From Bacteroidia bacterium (GTDB lineage Bacteria > Bacteroidota > Bacteroidia > AKYH767-A > OLB10): a stretch of DNA of 64,000 nucleotides. The position numbers were made by a program, and so were the translations under genes. This document shows positions 15,530 to 63,477 of this stretch, in pieces (the first letter of the stretch is position 1; each line of letters opens with the position of its first letter). Below the pieces are notes generated by a model that worked only from the letters and a program-made list of their open reading frames with translations, was not told the DNA's origin and did no database searches. The DNA is taken from positions 186,001-250,000 of the forward strand of contig JAEUTH010000042.1 of NCBI GenBank assembly GCA_016788165.1, read 5' to 3'.

Positions 15530-15785
15530 TAAATTGATACCTACTAATTTAAACTAATATCACCAGGGTTATTTCATGCTAACTACTACACGCTAATTTC
15601 GAAGCAGATTAAGAATAAATACTATATTCGGCACCAAACCACAATAACCAATCCCTTTAAACTAATCACACGCCTACTAATTATTGTACCCTGCTGCCTT
15701 AAAATTTATTGCCATTTTTTGTCAATCTATTATTCGATAAATTATACCTATTAATCAAACTAAACATTTAAAAACCTTTTTGCTT

Positions 15786-18700
15786 ATGAGAAAGTCAAAA
15801 TTACCTTTCAACTTTTATAAGAAGCCACTAATGTGGTCAATCTTTTTTTTATTGATATCAATTGGTATTAGCGCACAAAACAAACATACCAACATTGTTT
15901 CATCTGTTGCTACACAAAATAGAGTTTCAGCAAACCGGAAAGAACTTAACAAACAAGCCCATGAATCAGAAAAAATAATTGAACCTAAAAGAAAGGCTAA
16001 AAGTAAGCTTACTGATAATAAAGAAATAGAAAGGGAAAAAGAAGCTGAAGAAGAAGAAGAACGCGAGAAAGAGAAAAAACGAGAAGGCGCTTTACAACGA
16101 CTTCAGCGCGATCAGCTCATGATGAAAGACCCAAAGTTGGGTTATATTCCAAATGAAAGGTTGCTGGTCGCCAAACAGTATAAGGATCAATTAATGGCAC
16201 TTTCTATGGGGCCGTTAAACGGTGTAACCTGGAAAGAACAAGGACCAAACAACCAAGGTGGCCGATGCCGTGCCATGGTGGTTGACCCAAATGACGGTAG
16301 CGGAAATACCGTTTGGGCCGGCAGCGTTGGTGGTGGCCTTTGGAAAACAACGAATATTAATGCAAGCACACCTACATGGGTACCTATCACCGACCTTTTT
16401 GCAAACCTGGCAATCACTTCCATAGCTTTCGACCCAGGCAATGCGCAAATCATGTATTTTACTACCGGTGAGGGTTATGGTAATAGTGATGCCATACGTG
16501 GTTTGGGCGTTTGGAAAAGCACAGATGGTGGCAACACCTGGGCACAGTTAGCAGCTACCAATACCAGCACTTTTCATTTTTGTCAGAAAGTAATTGTAAG
16601 CAATACAGGCGTAATATTGGTTGCCACAGCAAGTGGCGGATTGCAGCGCTCAATAAATGGCGGCACATCGTTTAGTAAAGTTTTGGGTACCGGTTTGGGC
16701 ATTAGCGGAGCCGGAAATAATTTTTGCTATGATGTGGATATGGCAGCCAATGGCGATATTTACAGCACACTCGATGGCTCCGTTCATAAATCAACCAATG
16801 CGGGTGCAACATTTGGCGCTGCACAAAGCCTGCCGATAACAGCAGGCCGAATTGAATTAGCTTGCGCACCTAACGATGCCAATTATGTTTATGCACTTAT
16901 TGAAAACGGCAGCACCGTAGCCGGCATTTTGCAAACCACAGATGCAGGTACTACCTGGCTTACCCGAACCGAACCCGATGATGCCGACCCGGGAATACCA
17001 AATGCCGATTTTTCGAGAGGACAGGCATGGTACGATTTAGCTATTGCTGTTGACCCTAATAATAAAGACAGGCTGTTTGTTGGCGCAATAGATATTTTTG
17101 TTAGTGGCGATGGTGCAAACACCTGGTCACAGGTTACACATTGGTATGGTGGGTTTGGTTTTCAGAATGTGCATGCCGATCAGCATAATATTTTATTTCA
17201 AAATGGAAGCTCATCAATAGCTTATTTTTCGAATGATGGTGGTATTTATCGCTGTACAGATGCAAATACCGTTTTACCAACTATTACACGAAAAGATTAC
17301 AACTTCAACACCGCACAGTTTTATTCATGTGCCATACATCCAACAGCACAAACATCTCATTATTTAGCAGGCGCCCAAGATAATGGTTCGCATAAATTTG
17401 TAAGCAATGGCATTCAAAACACCACTGAAGTTACCGGTGGTGATGGTGCTTTTTGCCACATTGATCAGGACCAACCGCAGTTTCAATTTACAAGCTATGT
17501 ATATAATGACCACTACCGCTCAAGCGATGGTGGTGTTACATGGACTAATGTTACGGGCTCAGGCGGACAATTTATAAACCCTACCGATTATGATGATGTT
17601 AACAATAAACTTTATTGTTGCCGTAATAGCAACGATTACCTCCGATGGGACGACCCGCAAACCGGCAGTACTTTTTCAATTGTTTCGGTGCCGGGTTTTG
17701 GAGGACAAGTTTCTGCTGTAAAAGTTTCGCCTAATACAGCAAACCGGGTTTTCTTTGGAATTAGTAATGGCGACATTTTTAGAGTCGATAATGCGCATAC
17801 CGGTACACCAACAGCAACCAATATAAGTACCGGCTTACCTTCGGGTTATGCCGCTTGCGTTGAAGTTGAAACCGGCAACGACAATCACCTGCTTGTTACC
17901 TATAGTAACTATGGTGTAAATAGTGTTTGGGAGAGTACGGATGGTGGCGCTACCTGGACTTCGGTTGAAGGTAACCTGCCTGATATGCCTATTCGCTGGG
18001 CATTATTTAATCCTAATAACAGCGATCAGGCCATACTGGCAACTGAGTTAGGAGTTTGGAGTACGGATGACCTCAATGGCAACTCAACCAATTGGGGTGC
18101 AAGTAATTCAGGCCTTGCCAATGTAAGGGTAGATATGTTGCAATTGCGTCAAAGCGATAAATATGTAATTGCTGCCACACATGGCAGAGGGTTATTTGCA
18201 TCTGACTTGTTTACAATACCAACAGCCATTTTCGTTTCTGACAAACAACTTGCATACGTAAATAGCAATATCCAATTTACAAATTATAGTTATAAAGGCA
18301 CTTCATGGTCGTGGGATTTTGGTGATGGCTCTCCCTTATCAAATTCTGAAAATCCTTCACATAGTTATACCAATGGTGGAAAATACTCAGTAACCTTAAC
18401 CATAAACGCGGGAGCAGCCACTTTAACAAAAACACAATACATCCACATACTTCCAAATAGAGGCACTCCTTATGTGGTGGCATCAGACGGAGGAACTTTT
18501 GAAACAAATCTTAATGACTTTGGTTCGCAATCAATAAGAGGTGGTATAGATAAATGGGAACGTGGTGTACCATCCAATTTTCTTACTACCGTAAATTCGC
18601 CTGTTAATGCCTGGAAAACCGACCTTGATGCTGATTTAACCCCGGGCAACTATTCCTGTGTTTTGCAAACTCCATCATATAACTTTACAGCGGCTGGAAC

Positions 18701-21700
18701 TTATACTTTACGTTTCAGAAGAAGCATGGAAGTGGTATTTTGTAATGCTCCTTTTGCTGTGCAAGTTCAATATTCAACTGACAAAGGACTAAACTGGACA
18801 AGGTTAGGTGTAGATGCGGACCCGAATGCAACCAACTGGTATAACCGCGGGCCTGCAGCAGCATGCCCGATTGATGCTTCTGTTTTCTCTGACAGGTATG
18901 GCTGGACTTTAACAGGGCATAATACTTTATGTACTTATAATTTAACAACAGGTGTTCCGGCATTAATTGGTCAGTCAGATGTTACATTTCGATTTGTTTT
19001 ATCCGTAATCTCTGGTTATAGCGGTAGTGCTTATGCTGCAGATGGATTTATGGTTGATGATTTTGAAATATTAGGACCTAACAATCCGGCAAGTGGTACA
19101 GCAACTATTGTTACCACAGGTACACTTAATCCATTTTCGTCTTGTGCAGGTTTTGTTTCTGCAGCACAATCGTTTACGGTATCAGGCTCAGGCCTTACAG
19201 CAAATCTGGATGTAACAGCACCCACAGGTTATGAAGTTTCGTTAACAGCAGGTAGTGGATATGCTGCAACACTTGCATTAACTCCGGTTTCAGGAAATGT
19301 AAATACAACCACCATATTTGTGCGGTTGACAAATTCTGCATCCGGAACGCCTTCTGGTAATGTAGCTTGTACATCAGCCGGGGCTATTACGCAAAACGTT
19401 GCGGCTAGTGGAACCGTTCATGCAAATCCTGCTCCATCCATATCAGGCAGTTTATCTTTCTGTGCAGGTGGTTCTACTACATTAGATGCAGGTGTGTTTG
19501 CGAGTTATTTATGGTCAAACGGTGCTACTACACAAAGTATTTTGGTTAATACAGCCGGCACATTTACGGTAACTGTTACCGATGGTAATGGTTGTACAGG
19601 TGTGGCTTCGGTTACTACTACGGTTCATGCAAATCCATCGCCATCTATTTCAGGCAGTTTATCTTTCTGCGCAGGTGGTTCTACTACTTTAGATGCAGGT
19701 GTGTTTGCAAGTTATTTATGGTCAAACGGTGCTACTACACAAAGTATTTTGGTTAATACAGCCGGTACATTTACGGTAACTGTTACCGATGGTAATGGTT
19801 GTACAGGTTTGGCTTCGGTTACTACTACGATTAGTGGAAGTTTAAATCCAAGCATTTCAGGTAGTTTATCTTTCTGTGCAGGTGGTTCTACTACATTAGA
19901 TGCAGGTGTGTTTGCAAGTTATTTATGGTCAACAGGGGCTACTACACAAAGTATTTTGGTTAATACAGCCGGCACATTTACGGTAACTGTTACCGATGGC
20001 AATGGTTGTACAGGTTTGGCTTCGGTTACTACTACGGTTCATGCAAATCCATCGCCATCCATATCAGGCAGTTTATCTTTCTGTGCAGGTGGTTCTACTA
20101 CATTAGATGCAGGTGTGTTTGCAAGTTATTTATGGTCAAACGGTGCTACTACACAAAGTATTTTGGTTAATACAGCCGGCACATTTACGGTAACTGTTAC
20201 CGATGGCAATGGTTGTACAGGTGTGGCTTCGGTTACTACTACGGTTCATGCAAATCCATCGCCATCCATATCAGGCAGTTTATCTTTCTGTGCAGGTGGT
20301 TCTACTACTTTAGATGCAGGTGTGTTTGCAAGTTATTTATGGTCAAACGGTGCTACTACACAAAGTATTTTGGTTAATACAGCCGGCACATTTACGGTAA
20401 CTGTTACCGATGGTAATGGTTGCACGGGTATGGCTTCGGTTACTACTACGGTTCATGCAAATCCTGCTCCATCTATTTCAGGCAGTTTATCTTTCTGTGC
20501 AGGTGGTTCTACTACTTTAGATGCAGGTTTGTTTGCAAGTTATTTATGGTCAACAGGTGCGACTACACAAAGTATTTTGGTTAATACGGCCGGTACATTT
20601 ACAGTAACTGTTACCGATGGCAATGGTTGCACGGGCATGGCTTCGGTTACTACTACGGTTAGTGGAAGTTTAAATCCAAGCATTTCAGGCAGTTTGTCTT
20701 TCTGTGCAGGTGGTTCTACTACGTTAGATGCAGGTGTGTTTGCAAGTTATTTATGGTCAACAGGGGCTACTACACAAAGTATTTTGGTTAATACGGCCGG
20801 TACATTTACAGTAACTGTTACCGATGGTAATGGTTGCACGGGTATGGCTTCGGTTACTACTACGGTTCATGCAAATCCATCGCCAAGCATTTCAGGCAGT
20901 TTATCTTTCTGTGCAGGTGGTTCTACTACTTTAGATGCAGGTTTGTTTGCAAGTTATTTATGGTCAACAGGGGCTACTACACAAAGTATTTTGGTTAATA
21001 CGGCCGGTACATTTACAGTAACTGTTACCGATGGCAATGGTTGTACAGGTGTGGCTTCGGTTACTACTACGGTTGGAAGTTCAACACCAGCTCAGCCCGG
21101 CTTAATAACCGGACCTGTTGTAGTATGTAAAAATAGTAATGTAAGCTATTCAATAGCAGCTGTGCCAGGGGCAACCGGCTACACATGGACAGCCACTTCA
21201 GGTGCAACAGTAAGTAGCGGACAAGGCTCAACTAATGTGGTAATTAATTTCAGCAATTTGGCAACTAATGCCACACTTTCTGTTGTAGCAACTAATTTAT
21301 GCGGTTCAAGTATTGCACGTACATTATCATATACAGTAGCTACCGAAGCACCTGCTAAACCTGCAACCATTACTGGCATGTTGTTCGGCCTATGTAATAA
21401 GCCCAGTGTGCCATATTCGTGTCCTACGGTGGTAGGAGCCACATCTTATTTATGGTCAGTACCTACCGGGGTTACAATACTTTCAGGGCAAGGTACCAAC
21501 TCCATCACCGTTCAATACACCGGATCATTTACAGGCTCAGGAACATTAAGTGTATCAGCTCAAAATGGTTGTGGTAGTAGTGCACTTACGTCACGCATAG
21601 TTAATGCAAAGCCCCAACAGCCTGTAATTTCAGGACAAAACTGGGCATGCAAAGGGCAGGCAGGACTAACGTACACCGTATCCGCAGTTGCGGGTGCTAC

Positions 21701-22139
21701 AAGCTATCAGTGGATACCCGTGCCCGGCAGTACCATTACAAGTGGCCAGGGTACAACATCTATTACATACAAATGGGGTAATATTCATGGCGTTGTAAAG
21801 TGTATCGCTAAAAATGCCTGTGGAAACAGTATTGCAGGTAATTTATCAGTTTCATTTACGTGTAAAACGACTGACACAGACGAAAACTTTTCCGATATAA
21901 CACTTTATCCAAACCCGGCATCTGAAACTGCTACGTTATCATTTGAAAGCTTTATTGAAGGGGAAGCTGCAGTTTATATCAGGGACATGATTGGACAAGA
22001 ATTATTAAACGACAACGTGAAAGTGGAAAAAGGAAATAATAATTATATACTACGTCTATCCGAATTCCCTAAAGGCGTATATTTAGTAAGCCTTAAATTT
22101 AAGGGCATTTCCCAAAACAGCAGGCTTATAATACAATAA
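15786..22139 (+). CDS. Giant T9SS surface protein: BNR-type propeller, PKD, eight identical repeats
   Basis: A 2117-residue predicted adhesin or surface protein. Order: signal peptide (1-32, ending ISA-QN); a Lys/Glu-rich charged segment (about 55-110); a large VPS10/BNR-like propeller (about 125-815) with repeated VWKSTDGGNTW-type motifs; a PKD domain (about 818-892, WDFGDGSPLS); a jelly-roll-like domain (about 893-1100); a Ser/Thr-rich beta domain (about 1102-1211); eight 69-residue repeats (1212-1763); three PKD-like domains, each with VPGATGYTW-like and SSGQGS-like motifs (about 1766-2030); and a T9SS type A sorting domain (LYPNPASETATLSF). ATG 15786 is preferred over the TTG at 15780 because it gives MRKSKLPFNFYKK and a normal signal peptide. 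No catalytic residues were recognised. A strong terminator follows. Confidence 0.9.
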   Translation: MRKSKLPFNFYKKPLMWSIFFLLISIGISAQNKHTNIVSSVATQNRVSANRKELNKQAHESEKIIEPKRKAKSKLTDNKEIEREKEAEEEEEREKEKKREGALQRLQRDQLMMKDPKLGYIPNERLLVAKQYKDQLMALSMGPLNGVTWKEQGPNNQGGRCRAMVVDPNDGSGNTVWAGSVGGGLWKTTNINASTPTWVPITDLFANLAITSIAFDPGNAQIMYFTTGEGYGNSDAIRGLGVWKSTDGGNTWAQLAATNTSTFHFCQKVIVSNTGVILVATASGGLQRSINGGTSFSKVLGTGLGISGAGNNFCYDVDMAANGDIYSTLDGSVHKSTNAGATFGAAQSLPITAGRIELACAPNDANYVYALIENGSTVAGILQTTDAGTTWLTRTEPDDADPGIPNADFSRGQAWYDLAIAVDPNNKDRLFVGAIDIFVSGDGANTWSQVTHWYGGFGFQNVHADQHNILFQNGSSSIAYFSNDGGIYRCTDANTVLPTITRKDYNFNTAQFYSCAIHPTAQTSHYLAGAQDNGSHKFVSNGIQNTTEVTGGDGAFCHIDQDQPQFQFTSYVYNDHYRSSDGGVTWTNVTGSGGQFINPTDYDDVNNKLYCCRNSNDYLRWDDPQTGSTFSIVSVPGFGGQVSAVKVSPNTANRVFFGISNGDIFRVDNAHTGTPTATNISTGLPSGYAACVEVETGNDNHLLVTYSNYGVNSVWESTDGGATWTSVEGNLPDMPIRWALFNPNNSDQAILATELGVWSTDDLNGNSTNWGASNSGLANVRVDMLQLRQSDKYVIAATHGRGLFASDLFTIPTAIFVSDKQLAYVNSNIQFTNYSYKGTSWSWDFGDGSPLSNSENPSHSYTNGGKYSVTLTINAGAATLTKTQYIHILPNRGTPYVVASDGGTFETNLNDFGSQSIRGGIDKWERGVPSNFLTTVNSPVNAWKTDLDADLTPGNYSCVLQTPSYNFTAAGTYTLRFRRSMEVVFCNAPFAVQVQYSTDKGLNWTRLGVDADPNATNWYNRGPAAACPIDASVFSDRYGWTLTGHNTLCTYNLTTGVPALIGQSDVTFRFVLSVISGYSGSAYAADGFMVDDFEILGPNNPASGTATIVTTGTLNPFSSCAGFVSAAQSFTVSGSGLTANLDVTAPTGYEVSLTAGSGYAATLALTPVSGNVNTTTIFVRLTNSASGTPSGNVACTSAGAITQNVAASGTVHANPAPSISGSLSFCAGGSTTLDAGVFASYLWSNGATTQSILVNTAGTFTVTVTDGNGCTGVASVTTTVHANPSPSISGSLSFCAGGSTTLDAGVFASYLWSNGATTQSILVNTAGTFTVTVTDGNGCTGLASVTTTISGSLNPSISGSLSFCAGGSTTLDAGVFASYLWSTGATTQSILVNTAGTFTVTVTDGNGCTGLASVTTTVHANPSPSISGSLSFCAGGSTTLDAGVFASYLWSNGATTQSILVNTAGTFTVTVTDGNGCTGVASVTTTVHANPSPSISGSLSFCAGGSTTLDAGVFASYLWSNGATTQSILVNTAGTFTVTVTDGNGCTGMASVTTTVHANPAPSISGSLSFCAGGSTTLDAGLFASYLWSTGATTQSILVNTAGTFTVTVTDGNGCTGMASVTTTVSGSLNPSISGSLSFCAGGSTTLDAGVFASYLWSTGATTQSILVNTAGTFTVTVTDGNGCTGMASVTTTVHANPSPSISGSLSFCAGGSTTLDAGLFASYLWSTGATTQSILVNTAGTFTVTVTDGNGCTGVASVTTTVGSSTPAQPGLITGPVVVCKNSNVSYSIAAVPGATGYTWTATSGATVSSGQGSTNVVINFSNLATNATLSVVATNLCGSSIARTLSYTVATEAPAKPATITGMLFGLCNKPSVPYSCPTVVGATSYLWSVPTGVTILSGQGTNSITVQYTGSFTGSGTLSVSAQNGCGSSALTSRIVNAKPQQPVISGQNWACKGQAGLTYTVSAVAGATSYQWIPVPGSTITSGQGTTSITYKWGNIHGVVKCIAKNACGNSIAGNLSVSFTCKTTDTDENFSDITLYPNPASETATLSFESFIEGEAAVYIRDMIGQELLNDNVKVEKGNNNYILRLSEFPKGVYLVSLKFKGISQNSRLIIQ
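19419..21074 (+). repeat. Eight tandem 207-bp in-frame coding repeats
   Basis: Exactly eight copies of a 207-base unit (69 residues), all in frame inside the giant surface protein. Each unit contains SLSFCAGGSTTLDAG, YLWS[NT]GATTQSILVNTAG and TVTDGNGCTG, with two conserved Cys that could form a disulfide in an Ig-like fold. Copies 4 and 5 differ at only about five of 207 bases. Linkers are HANP[AS]PS in six copies and SGSLNPS in copies 3 and 7. Variant sites (WSNG or WSTG, GVF or GLF, GV/GL/GM before ASV) are shuffled between copies, as expected from unequal recombination or gene conversion. The true copy number could differ if the assembly used short reads. Confidence 0.95.
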
Positions 22140-49892: not shown

Positions 49893-52025
49893 ATGAAAAC
49901 ATACGATGAAAAACATATCAAAAACATTGTGCTGGCAGGTGCCCCAAAATCAGGTAAAACAACACTGTGCGAAACCATGTTATTTGAAGCCGGCATTATT
50001 CAACGCAGAGGCACCGTTGAAGAAAAAAACACCGTAAGCGATTATCATGAAATTGAACAACAACGTGGCAGTAGTGTGTATGCTACCAGCATGCATACTG
50101 AGTGGAAAGACTATAAAATAAATATTATTGATACACCCGGTTTAAACGATTTTATTGGCGAAGTAATAGCATCCATGCGTGTTTGCGATACAGTTGTTAT
50201 GTTACTTAATGCACAACATGGCGTTGAAGTGGGCACACAACTTTTATGGCATTATATTGACGCATACCGCAAACCCACTATTTTTTGTATCAATCAATGC
50301 GACCATGAAAAGAGCGACTTTTTTAATGCATACGAACAGGCACGACAAACCTTTGGCAACGCAGTTACGTTAATGCAATATCCGTTACAACAAGGTGCCG
50401 ATTTTCATGAAATAGTTGACTTGTTAAAAATGACGGTTTATCGTTTCGAAAAAAATGGCGGGAAACCCCAAAAATTACCCATACCCGACAGCGAAAAAGA
50501 AAGAGCAGAAAAACTACACAATGCCCTGGTTGAAAAAGCAGCAGAAAATGATGAGAAGTTGATGGAGCTCTATTTCGAAAAAGGCAACCTGGATGAAGAT
50601 GAATTGCGCAAAGGCATTAAGGAAGGCATGATGCATCATGATGTATTTCCGGTATTTTGCCTGAGTGCTAAAAATGACATGGGTAGCGGGCGTTTAATGG
50701 GCTTTATTGATAACGTTGCACCTTGCGCCATCGAAATGCCTGCCGAAAAAACAACTGAAGACATGGAGGTGCTTTGTGAAATAAACAAACCTGCTTCATT
50801 GTTTATTTTTAAAACCGTAATCGAGCCGCACTTAGGCAAGCTTAGTTATTTTAAAGTAATGCGTGGCGAAGTAAATGCAGGTATGGATTTGCAAAATGAA
50901 ATTACCGGTACAACCGAAAGATTAAACCAACTGTTTATTACCGATGGAAAAAACCGTAACCCAATTGGTACTTTAAAAGCGGGTGATATTGGTTGTACAT
51001 TAAAATTAAAAAACACCAATACCAATCATACGCTGAATGTAAAAGGCAACAACTTTACATTTCAGGATATATCATTTCCAACACCACGCATCAGAACCGG
51101 TATTGTAGCCAAAAACAAAGCCGATGATGAAAAGCTAAGCATGGCTTTACATGAAATACATGCAGGCGATTTAACGCTTATTGTCGAGCACTCGCAAGAG
51201 CTTAAGCAAACCTTATTACATGCCCAAGGCGACTTGCATTTGCAAACCATTAAATGGACTTTAGAACATGTGTATAAAATCGAAAGTCAGTTTGTACCTG
51301 CGCGCATTTCTTACCGCGAAACCATACGCACCGCATCGTTAGCCAATTACAGGCATAAAAAGCAATCGGGCGGTGCCGGCCAGTTTGGCGAAGTGCACAT
51401 TAAAATAGAACCCTATTTTGAAGGCATGCCACAAGTTACTGAGTATAGTGTACGCGATACCGAGGAGCATCCACTACCCTGGGGTGGCAAACTGGTTTTT
51501 AATAACTGTATTGTAGGTGGAGTAATTGATGCACGTTTTATACCGGCAATACAAAAAGGCATACTTGAAAAAATGCAGGAAGGCCCCTTAACCGGATCGC
51601 ATGTATGCGATGTACGTGTAAGTGTTTATGATGGAAAAATGCATCCGGTTGACAGCAACGATATATCATTTAAAATTGCAGGTATGATGGCTTTTAAAGA
51701 TGCTTTTCATTTAGCACAACCTCAACTGTTAGAACCTGTACAAGAAATTGCCGTTACCATACCCGAAGAAATTTTAGGCGATGTAATGACTGAATTACAA
51801 GGCCGCAGAAGTATTATACTAGGCATTGATAACCACAATGGGATGCAAATAGTAAAAGCGCATACGCCTTTGGCCGAAATGGATAAATTGCAACAAGACC
51901 TGCGCAGTATATCACAAGGCCGCGGTTTTGTTAGCAGCAAGTTTCATGATTATTTACCGGTACCAGCCGACTTGCAAATTAAACTTACCGATGCTTATAA
52001 AAAACAACAAACCGATGAGCATTAA
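49893..52025 (+). CDS. EF-G paralogue with substituted GTPase motifs (EF-G2-like)
   Basis: 710 residues with the whole EF-G domain order: G domain (1-270), domain II (about 290-380), domain III (about 400-480), domain IV (about 485-600, with KKQSGGAGQFGEVHI and GGVIDARFIPAIQKGI) and domain V (about 610-700). The P-loop GAPKSGKT (16-23) is kept. The switch I RGIT motif reads RGSS (58-61). The DTPGH motif reads DTPGL, with Leu84 replacing the catalytic His. NKxD reads NQCD (134-137). GTP hydrolysis should therefore be lost or very weak. A GTPase-deficient EF-G2 used for translation during carbon starvation has been described in Bacteroides; this gene may be the same class. It is a single-gene unit and not next to rpsL/rpsG/tuf. 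Confidence 0.9.
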   Translation: MKTYDEKHIKNIVLAGAPKSGKTTLCETMLFEAGIIQRRGTVEEKNTVSDYHEIEQQRGSSVYATSMHTEWKDYKINIIDTPGLNDFIGEVIASMRVCDTVVMLLNAQHGVEVGTQLLWHYIDAYRKPTIFCINQCDHEKSDFFNAYEQARQTFGNAVTLMQYPLQQGADFHEIVDLLKMTVYRFEKNGGKPQKLPIPDSEKERAEKLHNALVEKAAENDEKLMELYFEKGNLDEDELRKGIKEGMMHHDVFPVFCLSAKNDMGSGRLMGFIDNVAPCAIEMPAEKTTEDMEVLCEINKPASLFIFKTVIEPHLGKLSYFKVMRGEVNAGMDLQNEITGTTERLNQLFITDGKNRNPIGTLKAGDIGCTLKLKNTNTNHTLNVKGNNFTFQDISFPTPRIRTGIVAKNKADDEKLSMALHEIHAGDLTLIVEHSQELKQTLLHAQGDLHLQTIKWTLEHVYKIESQFVPARISYRETIRTASLANYRHKKQSGGAGQFGEVHIKIEPYFEGMPQVTEYSVRDTEEHPLPWGGKLVFNNCIVGGVIDARFIPAIQKGILEKMQEGPLTGSHVCDVRVSVYDGKMHPVDSNDISFKIAGMMAFKDAFHLAQPQLLEPVQEIAVTIPEEILGDVMTELQGRRSIILGIDNHNGMQIVKAHTPLAEMDKLQQDLRSISQGRGFVSSKFHDYLPVPADLQIKLTDAYKKQQTDEH

Positions 52026-61173: not shown

Positions 61174-63477
61174 TTACAGCTGTTTACAAAACTTAACATT
61201 TGCTAATCCGTTGGCACCAACTAATCGTATAAAATAATTACCCTGAGGTAAGTTAGTTACATCAAGCTGAATTAAATGCAACGACTGCTGTATCTTTTGC
61301 TCTAATAAAACACGTCCGGTAACATCAAACACTTGCAGGCTACTTAACGGTGTTGAGGCATTAATGTATAAAATATTGTTTACCGGATTGGGATGTACTA
61401 TGGTTTTAAATTCGTTGTAAAAAGTAGCTGCTACTACATTAGAAAACATAGGTGTAACCGATGCAAGTGTTACAATTGGCTTAGCCCCATCGGGATAGCA
61501 ACCCATGCTTACATTGGTGGTTTGCACACCATAAGAAAGACTATCAATAAATCTGAAATCTTTACCTGTGTATTCCGTAATGGCAATTTTGTCGGCTGTT
61601 GCATTGAGCTTAAACGATGCGTGATTACTGCCTTGTTGTTCATCATCATCAGCCCAAAATATTTGAAAGCCATTGGCAATGGGTGTGGTAATGCGCCACT
61701 TATCAGGTTTTAAAAAATCATCCGTTAAAAACAATTGCTGGTTGACTATAGTGGTGCCAGCATTATACAGTTCAATCCAATCGTCATACTCGCCATAATT
61801 ATCGGCAATCACATTGGCGTTATCGGCCATAAACTCGTTTATGCTAACTGCCCATGGCGTTTCAATAATTAAAGTATCGCTGTATAATCGGGGTTCGCGG
61901 CCTGTTAAGTTGTTAGCATCCGTACAAGTGATGTAATAGTATAGTGTATCCTTTGTGCTAACCGGATTAAGTGCCACACCAAAAATATTATCGCCTGATG
62001 CATCATCATTATGCAAACCGTCATCAAACATATTAGTTGTAAGCCAGGTTGCAGTTTGGCCATAGCGGTAATTTAAAACCGGATTAACAACGGTTAGTTC
62101 GTCTTCTACCAATGCTTTAATAAAAACCGTATCGCCTGCTACAGGTCTAAAAGGATAATGTCGTTTTTCGCTAATTATGGGCGCCACCTGATTAACTTGC
62201 ATCTGCGAAACTGCTTGTGCATTACGTGTGCTTATATAAGGCTTTAGGCCGTAATCAACATGACCACCTATGGCTTGGGTATATGAGTTAATAAAATCAC
62301 CAAAGGTGTATCCGTAGTCTAATGTGTAGTAAGTGTCATTAATAACATAGGTTTCTATTTGTGTTTTTATATTATCAATAAATGTTTGTTGAAATGCGAA
62401 TGAACCAGCACCGGCTACAATTTGGTTTAAGTAGAACGTAAACCGGTTAGCGTAATCGGGATAGGCCATAAGTTTTGTAATCAAATATTTATTAGCACTA
62501 TTAACCGGCCAATTATATACGTTGCGGGTGCCCCAGTCTTTACCTAACCAATCAATGCCATACGTATTATCAACATCATACGGCAGGTAATTTATCTTAC
62601 CGGTTTGCCAATCATTATACAAATAATAGTTGTTGGTGTTACCGGCATAATTATCCCAGTTGCCTGTTATTACATCAAATGCATACGTACGTAAAAAAGA
62701 ATTTACGTTAAACTGTTTTTCTAAATTATATTGATAATTTGTTGTTGCGGGTGCGTGCAATGCCTGAACAAAATTTTTAAGGTCGGTATAATTATCCTGA
62801 ACCGTATTGGTTTTAAGTTCATACACTCTGCGACCTTGTGCTGTAAGTTTATAAGCATTAGCGTTGGTGCCCAGGTTTTCTAAATCGGCTGGGTAAAGGC
62901 ATTTGTATAAGTTGCCCCAATTGTTGTTGTAGCGGAGTTGAATATAGTTTTCATCAATATGCTCTACGTTAATATATAAACCATAGTAATCCTGGTTTAT
63001 GTATAACTCAACATGATTACTGCGCGCTGCCACTACCCTGCACATAGATGCTGTTTGCCAAAATACATGTGCGCGTGTAATGGTAGGGTCGTTATGCTCG
63101 CCATTGAGATTTAATTTTTCGACACCATCATATTTACGGCCCTTTTCAAAAGTATTAAACGAAACCTTAAACGATTTTTTTGCACTTGCACGTGATGTAT
63201 TGCCTCTAAGTCTGAAACCTATATTTAAAACTGTATCTTTAATGTTGCCATCATTAAAAGTAAATGTTGCATGATACTCATTATCACTATAAGGGTTGTT
63301 TAATATAAGTGCCAGCGAGTCGGGGTCAATTTCAATATCAATACGTGGTACAACAGCAGTATTGTATAAAGTTCCATTTGATGGATGATAGGGTTGCGCA
63401 TGAGATACTTTTATAAAACAACACAACGTAATACAAACAAAGTATATAGCTACCGTTATCCTATTTGCATTTTTCAT
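61174..63477 (-). CDS. CotH kinase-fold protein with lamin-tail and T9SS domains
   Basis: 767 residues, secreted (signal region 1-27, ending SHAQP). An N-terminal CotH domain (about 45-390) has RLRGNTSRASAKKSFKVSF, NHVELYINQDYYGLYINVEH and LPYDVDNTYGIDWLG. CotH of Bacillus is a protein kinase of spore coat proteins; Bacteroidota homologues are secreted and untested to my knowledge. A beta domain (about 425-540), a lamin-tail domain (about 545-650; SINEFMADNANVI, EYDDWIELYNAG) and a T9SS type A domain (VHPNPVNNILYINAS) follow. It is upstream of the YkgJ-like gene. Confidence 0.9.
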   Translation of the reverse strand: MKNANRITVAIYFVCITLCCFIKVSHAQPYHPSNGTLYNTAVVPRIDIEIDPDSLALILNNPYSDNEYHATFTFNDGNIKDTVLNIGFRLRGNTSRASAKKSFKVSFNTFEKGRKYDGVEKLNLNGEHNDPTITRAHVFWQTASMCRVVAARSNHVELYINQDYYGLYINVEHIDENYIQLRYNNNWGNLYKCLYPADLENLGTNANAYKLTAQGRRVYELKTNTVQDNYTDLKNFVQALHAPATTNYQYNLEKQFNVNSFLRTYAFDVITGNWDNYAGNTNNYYLYNDWQTGKINYLPYDVDNTYGIDWLGKDWGTRNVYNWPVNSANKYLITKLMAYPDYANRFTFYLNQIVAGAGSFAFQQTFIDNIKTQIETYVINDTYYTLDYGYTFGDFINSYTQAIGGHVDYGLKPYISTRNAQAVSQMQVNQVAPIISEKRHYPFRPVAGDTVFIKALVEDELTVVNPVLNYRYGQTATWLTTNMFDDGLHNDDASGDNIFGVALNPVSTKDTLYYYITCTDANNLTGREPRLYSDTLIIETPWAVSINEFMADNANVIADNYGEYDDWIELYNAGTTIVNQQLFLTDDFLKPDKWRITTPIANGFQIFWADDDEQQGSNHASFKLNATADKIAITEYTGKDFRFIDSLSYGVQTTNVSMGCYPDGAKPIVTLASVTPMFSNVVAATFYNEFKTIVHPNPVNNILYINASTPLSSLQVFDVTGRVLLEQKIQQSLHLIQLDVTNLPQGNYFIRLVGANGLANVKFCKQL

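Follow-up and report, generated by a model that had tools for sequence, protein, structure and literature searches.

Introduction

Bacteroides thetaiotaomicron EF-G2 (FusA2, BT2167; PDB 8DMF) has been reported to enable GTP-independent translation (PMC10294740; Han et al. 2023, cited in PMC12775393). Its gene, fusA2, is highly conserved across the Bacteroidetes, and at the fusA2 promoter of B. thetaiotaomicron Cur (BT4338) binds a 22-bp site, CCTTATGTTACATAACATTGTT, which resembles the consensus wwwTATGTTnTAnAACATAwww (PMC6989115). The wider EFG II subfamily (Margus et al. 2011) includes EF-G-2 of Thermus thermophilus (1WDT) and of M. smegmatis. Its switch I consensus is xxxSx, in which Ser stands for the Mg2+-coordinating Thr and for which YGYSV is the Bacteroidetes entry, and the NKxD motif has been stated to be conserved in it (PMC3150367). 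According to the work cited in PMC3150367, Thermus EF-G-2 reportedly binds GTP, hydrolyses it and supports poly(Phe) synthesis, and M. smegmatis EF-G-2 was reported to lack ribosome-dependent GTPase activity. In canonical EF-G from E. coli, the H91A replacement lowers GTP hydrolysis to 28/s versus 202/s, and the H91Q variant remains close to wild type (PMC4532990).

Here we describe a second EF-G gene lying in a 64,000-nucleotide stretch of DNA from a Bacteroidia bacterium, hereafter called the window.

The window encodes an orthologue of B. thetaiotaomicron EF-G2

The gene (Table 1) has an ATG start. The best NCBIfam model for its product was NF058620 EFG2_Bacteroid (E 7e-299, 993 bits, profile positions 1-716 of 717). 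The curated cut-off of this model is 1000 bits and the protein thus falls 7 bits (0.7%) under it; most full-length orthologues of the same family score 1017-1057 bits, and the next-best models score lower. The cut-off of the broader model NF009381 was passed, and the canonical EF-G model TIGR00484 gave 512 bits, below its cut-off of 659. Among PDB sequences, the best match was the 718-aa chain of 7uvp/8dmf (E 4e-229), followed by canonical EF-Gs at about E 1e-130. An AlphaFold2 model was computed, with a mean pLDDT of 84.7 and with residues 39-55 and 58-70, in the switch I region, below 50; its top fold match was 8dmf, described as ribosome-bound Bacteroides thetaiotaomicron EF-G2 (E 5e-88, TM 0.89), with the same fold and 49% identity over the full length. 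Canonical EF-Gs trailed in this search with 27-36% identity.

In a maximum-likelihood tree, the window protein formed one clade, with 100/100 support, with B. thetaiotaomicron EF-G2, two Bacteroidales sequences of gut or oral origin and EF-G2s from other Bacteroidota, in which the nearest EF-G2 relatives of the window protein are Chitinophaga-like, with up to 69% identity. A grouping with canonical EF-G, which the sequence-only reading had named as the counter-case, was rejected when the window protein was forced there (p-AU 1e-7, at a cost of 188 log-likelihood units). Thermus EF-G-2 and a Paraburkholderia sequence (L135) were left out of this careful tree; their deep placement cannot be relied on, as two long branches come together. 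Plasmid matches picked as candidate EFG II proteins of other phyla turned out to be mostly canonical EF-Gs and were reused as EFG I references.

The window protein is therefore a true orthologue of B. thetaiotaomicron EF-G2 and an ordinary member of its family. The sequence-only reading had placed it in the EF-G2 class outside gut Bacteroides, and this is borne out by the profile, the tree, the fold and a common domain IV insert; the occurrence of the class outside gut Bacteroides is already recognised through NF058620 and PMC6989115.

The source genome (a 3.34 Mb assembly, 99.8% complete) also has a canonical EF-G, encoded on a different contig (L002, G000:C3:185859-187955), with DTPGH, NKMD and RGITI; the two proteins share 30% identity by alignment. 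A menaquinone-biosynthesis-like gene (VitK2_biosynth) ends 140 bp upstream of the EF-G2 gene and the downstream gene is convergent; judged from these neighbours, the EF-G2 gene appears to stand alone.

Counting split genes and the source genome itself, EF-G2 was found in 15 of the 21 genomes that make up the close-relative set; among Bacteroidia genomes it was found in 68 of 296. The gene is therefore dispensable and often absent. In some close relatives it is split over contigs (G007, C6/C10; G002, C57/C68) or has an internal stop, as at G006:C9:18807-20708, which has one TAG; such cases may come from breaks in the assembly or from decay, the gene being dispensable.

Sequence motifs and domain IV

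Table 1. The EF-G2 gene of the window and its features (positions in the window)
Feature	Position	Strand	Residues and remarks	Basis
EF-G2 gene (EFG II subfamily)	49893..52025	+	710 aa; five-domain EF-G architecture	profile, tree, fold match
G1/P-loop GAPKSGKT	49938..49961	+	16-23; intact	alignment
G2/switch I RGSSV	50064..50078	+	58-62; Ser61 replaces Thr; EFG II signature xxxSx	alignment, PMC3150367
G3/switch II DTPGL	50130..50144	+	80-84; Leu84 (50142-50144) replaces the GTPase-activating His	alignment
G4 NQCD	50292..50303	+	134-137; Lys to Gln; NQLD in B. thetaiotaomicron EF-G2	alignment
Domain IV tip loop QSGGAGQFG	51363..51389	+	491-499; intact	alignment
Domain IV insert	51414..51479	+	about 508-529; ends before WGGKLVF	alignment
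Domain IV tip loop GKMHPVDSND	51633..51662	+	581-590; conserved His584, equivalent of E. coli H583	alignment

The interval 50142-50304, on which the sequence-only reading had focused, runs from codon 84 through the NQCD motif. That reading had listed Leu84 in place of His, NQCD at residues 134-137 and RGSS in switch I, and each was confirmed by alignment with the canonical EF-G of the same genome (IDTPGLNDF/IDTPGHVDF, CINQCD/FVNKMD and QRGSSV/ERGITI, respectively). It had also described the P-loop and domain IV as intact, and we found the P-loop (aligned as GAPKSGKTT) and both domain IV tip loops in place. One point has to be corrected: RGSS was counted among the oddities, but it is no defect, Thr to Ser being the EFG II consensus, and RGSSV fits the published xxxSx signature in place of RGITI (PMC3150367).

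With canonical EF-G (EFG I, fusA) the window protein shares the five-domain architecture and the domain IV tip loops; it differs from it by the absence of DTPGH, NKxD and RGITI and by its separate clade. With the EFG II proteins of T. thermophilus and M. smegmatis it shares the relaxed switch I and the status of second EF-G in the genome, and with Thermus EF-G-2 and the other sampled EFG II proteins a residue other than His after DxPG. Thermus EF-G-2, however, has only about 30% identity to the window protein and lacks the domain IV insert. This insert is common to the window protein and B. thetaiotaomicron EF-G2 and is missing in canonical EF-G and in the sampled EFG II proteins of other phyla. 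The latter two orthologues, that of the window and that of B. thetaiotaomicron, are also alike in the absence of the switch-II His, in NQxD and in the Ser of switch I; they differ in the insert, which is 9 aa longer in B. thetaiotaomicron, and in motif details (Leu, DTPG and RGSSV in the window protein versus Ser, DCPG and YGYSV). Of all domains, domain IV is the best conserved between the two, with 69% identity against 39-49% for the others. Together with the intact tip loops, this points to translocase contacts having been kept.

Residue variation and GTP hydrolysis

We examined 122 Bacteroidota EF-G2 proteins at the flagged positions. None has His at position 84, where Leu (64), Phe (27), Tyr (16), Thr (6), Ser (4), Ile (3), Pro (1) and Ala (1) occur. 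Position 135 is Gln in 85, Lys in 28, His in 6, Leu in 2 and Ser in 1; position 61 is Ser in 115 and Thr in 7; and 117 of the 122 have WGG after the domain IV insert. In a tree of the 122 proteins plus six outgroup sequences, position 84 changed at least 13 times. The G4 position 135 (Lys/Gln) changed at least 8 times within the family and is therefore no fixed hallmark. The recurrence of these substitutions rules out sequencing noise. Nor does any EFG II protein sampled from Thermus, Fusobacteriota, Paraburkholderia, Oscillospiraceae or additional families of the window's own phylum have the switch-II His. As for NKxD, the NQCD of the window protein, NQxD in 85 of the 122 Bacteroidota members and TKLD in Thermus EF-G-2 indicate that this motif is not subfamily-wide. 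Most of the residues first flagged are thus ordinary for the EFG II subfamily; what is specific to the window protein and B. thetaiotaomicron EF-G2 is their phylogeny, the domain IV insert and, with its variability, NQxD.

The sequence-only reading had deduced loss of GTPase activity from the missing His and the altered NKxD. As argued, this is unsupported: Thermus EF-G-2 has neither motif (DAPGY, TKLD) and reportedly hydrolyses GTP. Taken alone, the motif residues are weak evidence and do not show loss of hydrolysis, since the His is missing in all sampled EFG II proteins, the one of Thermus, reported to hydrolyse GTP, included. E. coli EF-G, too, keeps a hydrolysis rate of 28/s in the H91A mutant. 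By the same reasoning, loss of this His alone cannot explain why B. thetaiotaomicron EF-G2 needs no GTP hydrolysis. By analogy, GTPase loss in the window protein is nevertheless plausible, and the argument that hydrolysis is weak or absent draws on orthology to B. thetaiotaomicron EF-G2 more than on the motif. The Bacteroidota set, with NQ or NK in G4 and with L, F, Y, S or T at the His position, offers a natural panel for locating the change that abolishes hydrolysis.

Proposed function

We propose, with a probability of roughly 0.6, that the window protein acts as a slow alternative EF-G beside the canonical one, with an intact domain IV and little or no ribosome-stimulated GTP hydrolysis. 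It is a second, dispensable EF-G retained beside canonical EF-G in a non-gut member of the Bacteroidia. By analogy with the B. thetaiotaomicron orthologue, it would bind the ribosome in an EF-G-like manner, and its domain IV would enter the A site and promote, slowly, the translocation of tRNA and mRNA; hydrolysis might be as low as is reported for that orthologue, and the factor might be used under carbon or energy limitation. The conservation of domain IV and of its tip loops fits a factor that still inserts this domain into the A site, and a B. thetaiotaomicron-like function is supported by the fact that both proteins have a residue other than His at position 84 and NQxD (DCPGS and NQLD in B. 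thetaiotaomicron).

A real but unlikely alternative is that the window protein is a Bacteroidota EF-G2 that still hydrolyses GTP, other residues doing the job of the His as in Thermus EF-G-2. The absence of the His from all sampled EFG II proteins, whether from Thermus, Fusobacteriota, Paraburkholderia, Oscillospiraceae or elsewhere in the phylum, agrees with it, as do the reported activity of the Thermus protein (cited in PMC3150367) and the intact P-loop, DTPG and Ser61 of the window protein; however, the closest biochemically tested relative, B. thetaiotaomicron EF-G2, is reported to be hydrolysis-independent and has NQxD in common with the window protein.

We consider it quite improbable that the protein is specialised for recycling or rescuing ribosomes or for exit from hibernation and does not serve translocation, by analogy with split EF-G pairs (Borrelia, mitochondrial EF-G2). 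EF-G paralogues can split functions (PMC3150367) and the EF-G2 gene is dispensable and patchy, but the tip loops of domain IV show full conservation and B. thetaiotaomicron EF-G2 is reported to support translation (PMC10294740).

Identity as a TetQ-type tetracycline ribosomal protection protein, suggested by the molecule name of 7uvp ('Tetracycline resistance protein TetQ'), can practically be discarded: all tetracycline-protection models stayed below their cut-offs (NCBIfam TetQ, 114 bits where 1425 are required; generic tet_protect, 259 where 775 are required), the entry 8dmf calls the same chain EF-G2, and the domain IV loops are of EF-G type. The 7uvp chain has the same sequence as the B. 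thetaiotaomicron EF-G2 in 8dmf, and its TetQ name is likely a mislabel.

Upstream regions of EF-G2 genes

Unlike B. thetaiotaomicron fusA2, the window gene does not come from a gut Bacteroides. A motif scan upstream of it for a Cur-like site, as would go with Cur-dependent induction at carbon limitation in the B. thetaiotaomicron EF-G2 class, gave chance-level matches only. The absence of a Cur site is weak evidence, because the scan was also unconvincing in two gut relatives (L014, L016).

A conserved palindrome, ATGTT-NN-AACAT (ATGTTNNAACAT; consensus ATGTT(G/A)(C/T)AACAT), was found upstream of EF-G2 in 15 of 21 Chitinophaga-group loci (L017, L021, L024-L029, L033-L036, L039, L040, L042). 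It sits in the intergenic region that separates EF-G2 from a divergent neighbour, 85-181 bp upstream of EF-G2 and, in L027, 278 bp upstream. The background in the flanks is 0.022 per 300 bp, and the 13 matches obtained upstream of 154 other ORFs all fall, by their coordinates, in the same EF-G2 divergent intergenic region. The half-sites are those of the Bacteroides Cur consensus, but the spacer is of 2 nt instead of 4 nt. Upstream of the window EF-G2 the palindrome was not found; it hints at regulation of EF-G2 outside the gut and is no feature of the window.

It is conceivable, although we hold it rather doubtful, that environmental Bacteroidota EF-G2 serves as a GTP-independent translocase in energy limitation, the Chitinophaga gene being under a Cur-like regulator that acts through ATGTT-NN-AACAT and the window protein belonging to the same set, its site having been lost or never gained. 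If such Cur-like control of Chitinophaga EF-G2 is true, the strategy of a GTP-independent translocase is not tied to gut life.

Other genes of the window

Two further genes of the window were noted. The forward-strand gene at 15780-22139 encodes a protein of 2119 aa, which combines PKD-like domains with a Sortilin-Vps10-like match and a C-terminal sorting domain of the T9SS; the product of the reverse-strand gene at 61174-63477 has a CotH kinase domain and a tail for T9SS sorting.
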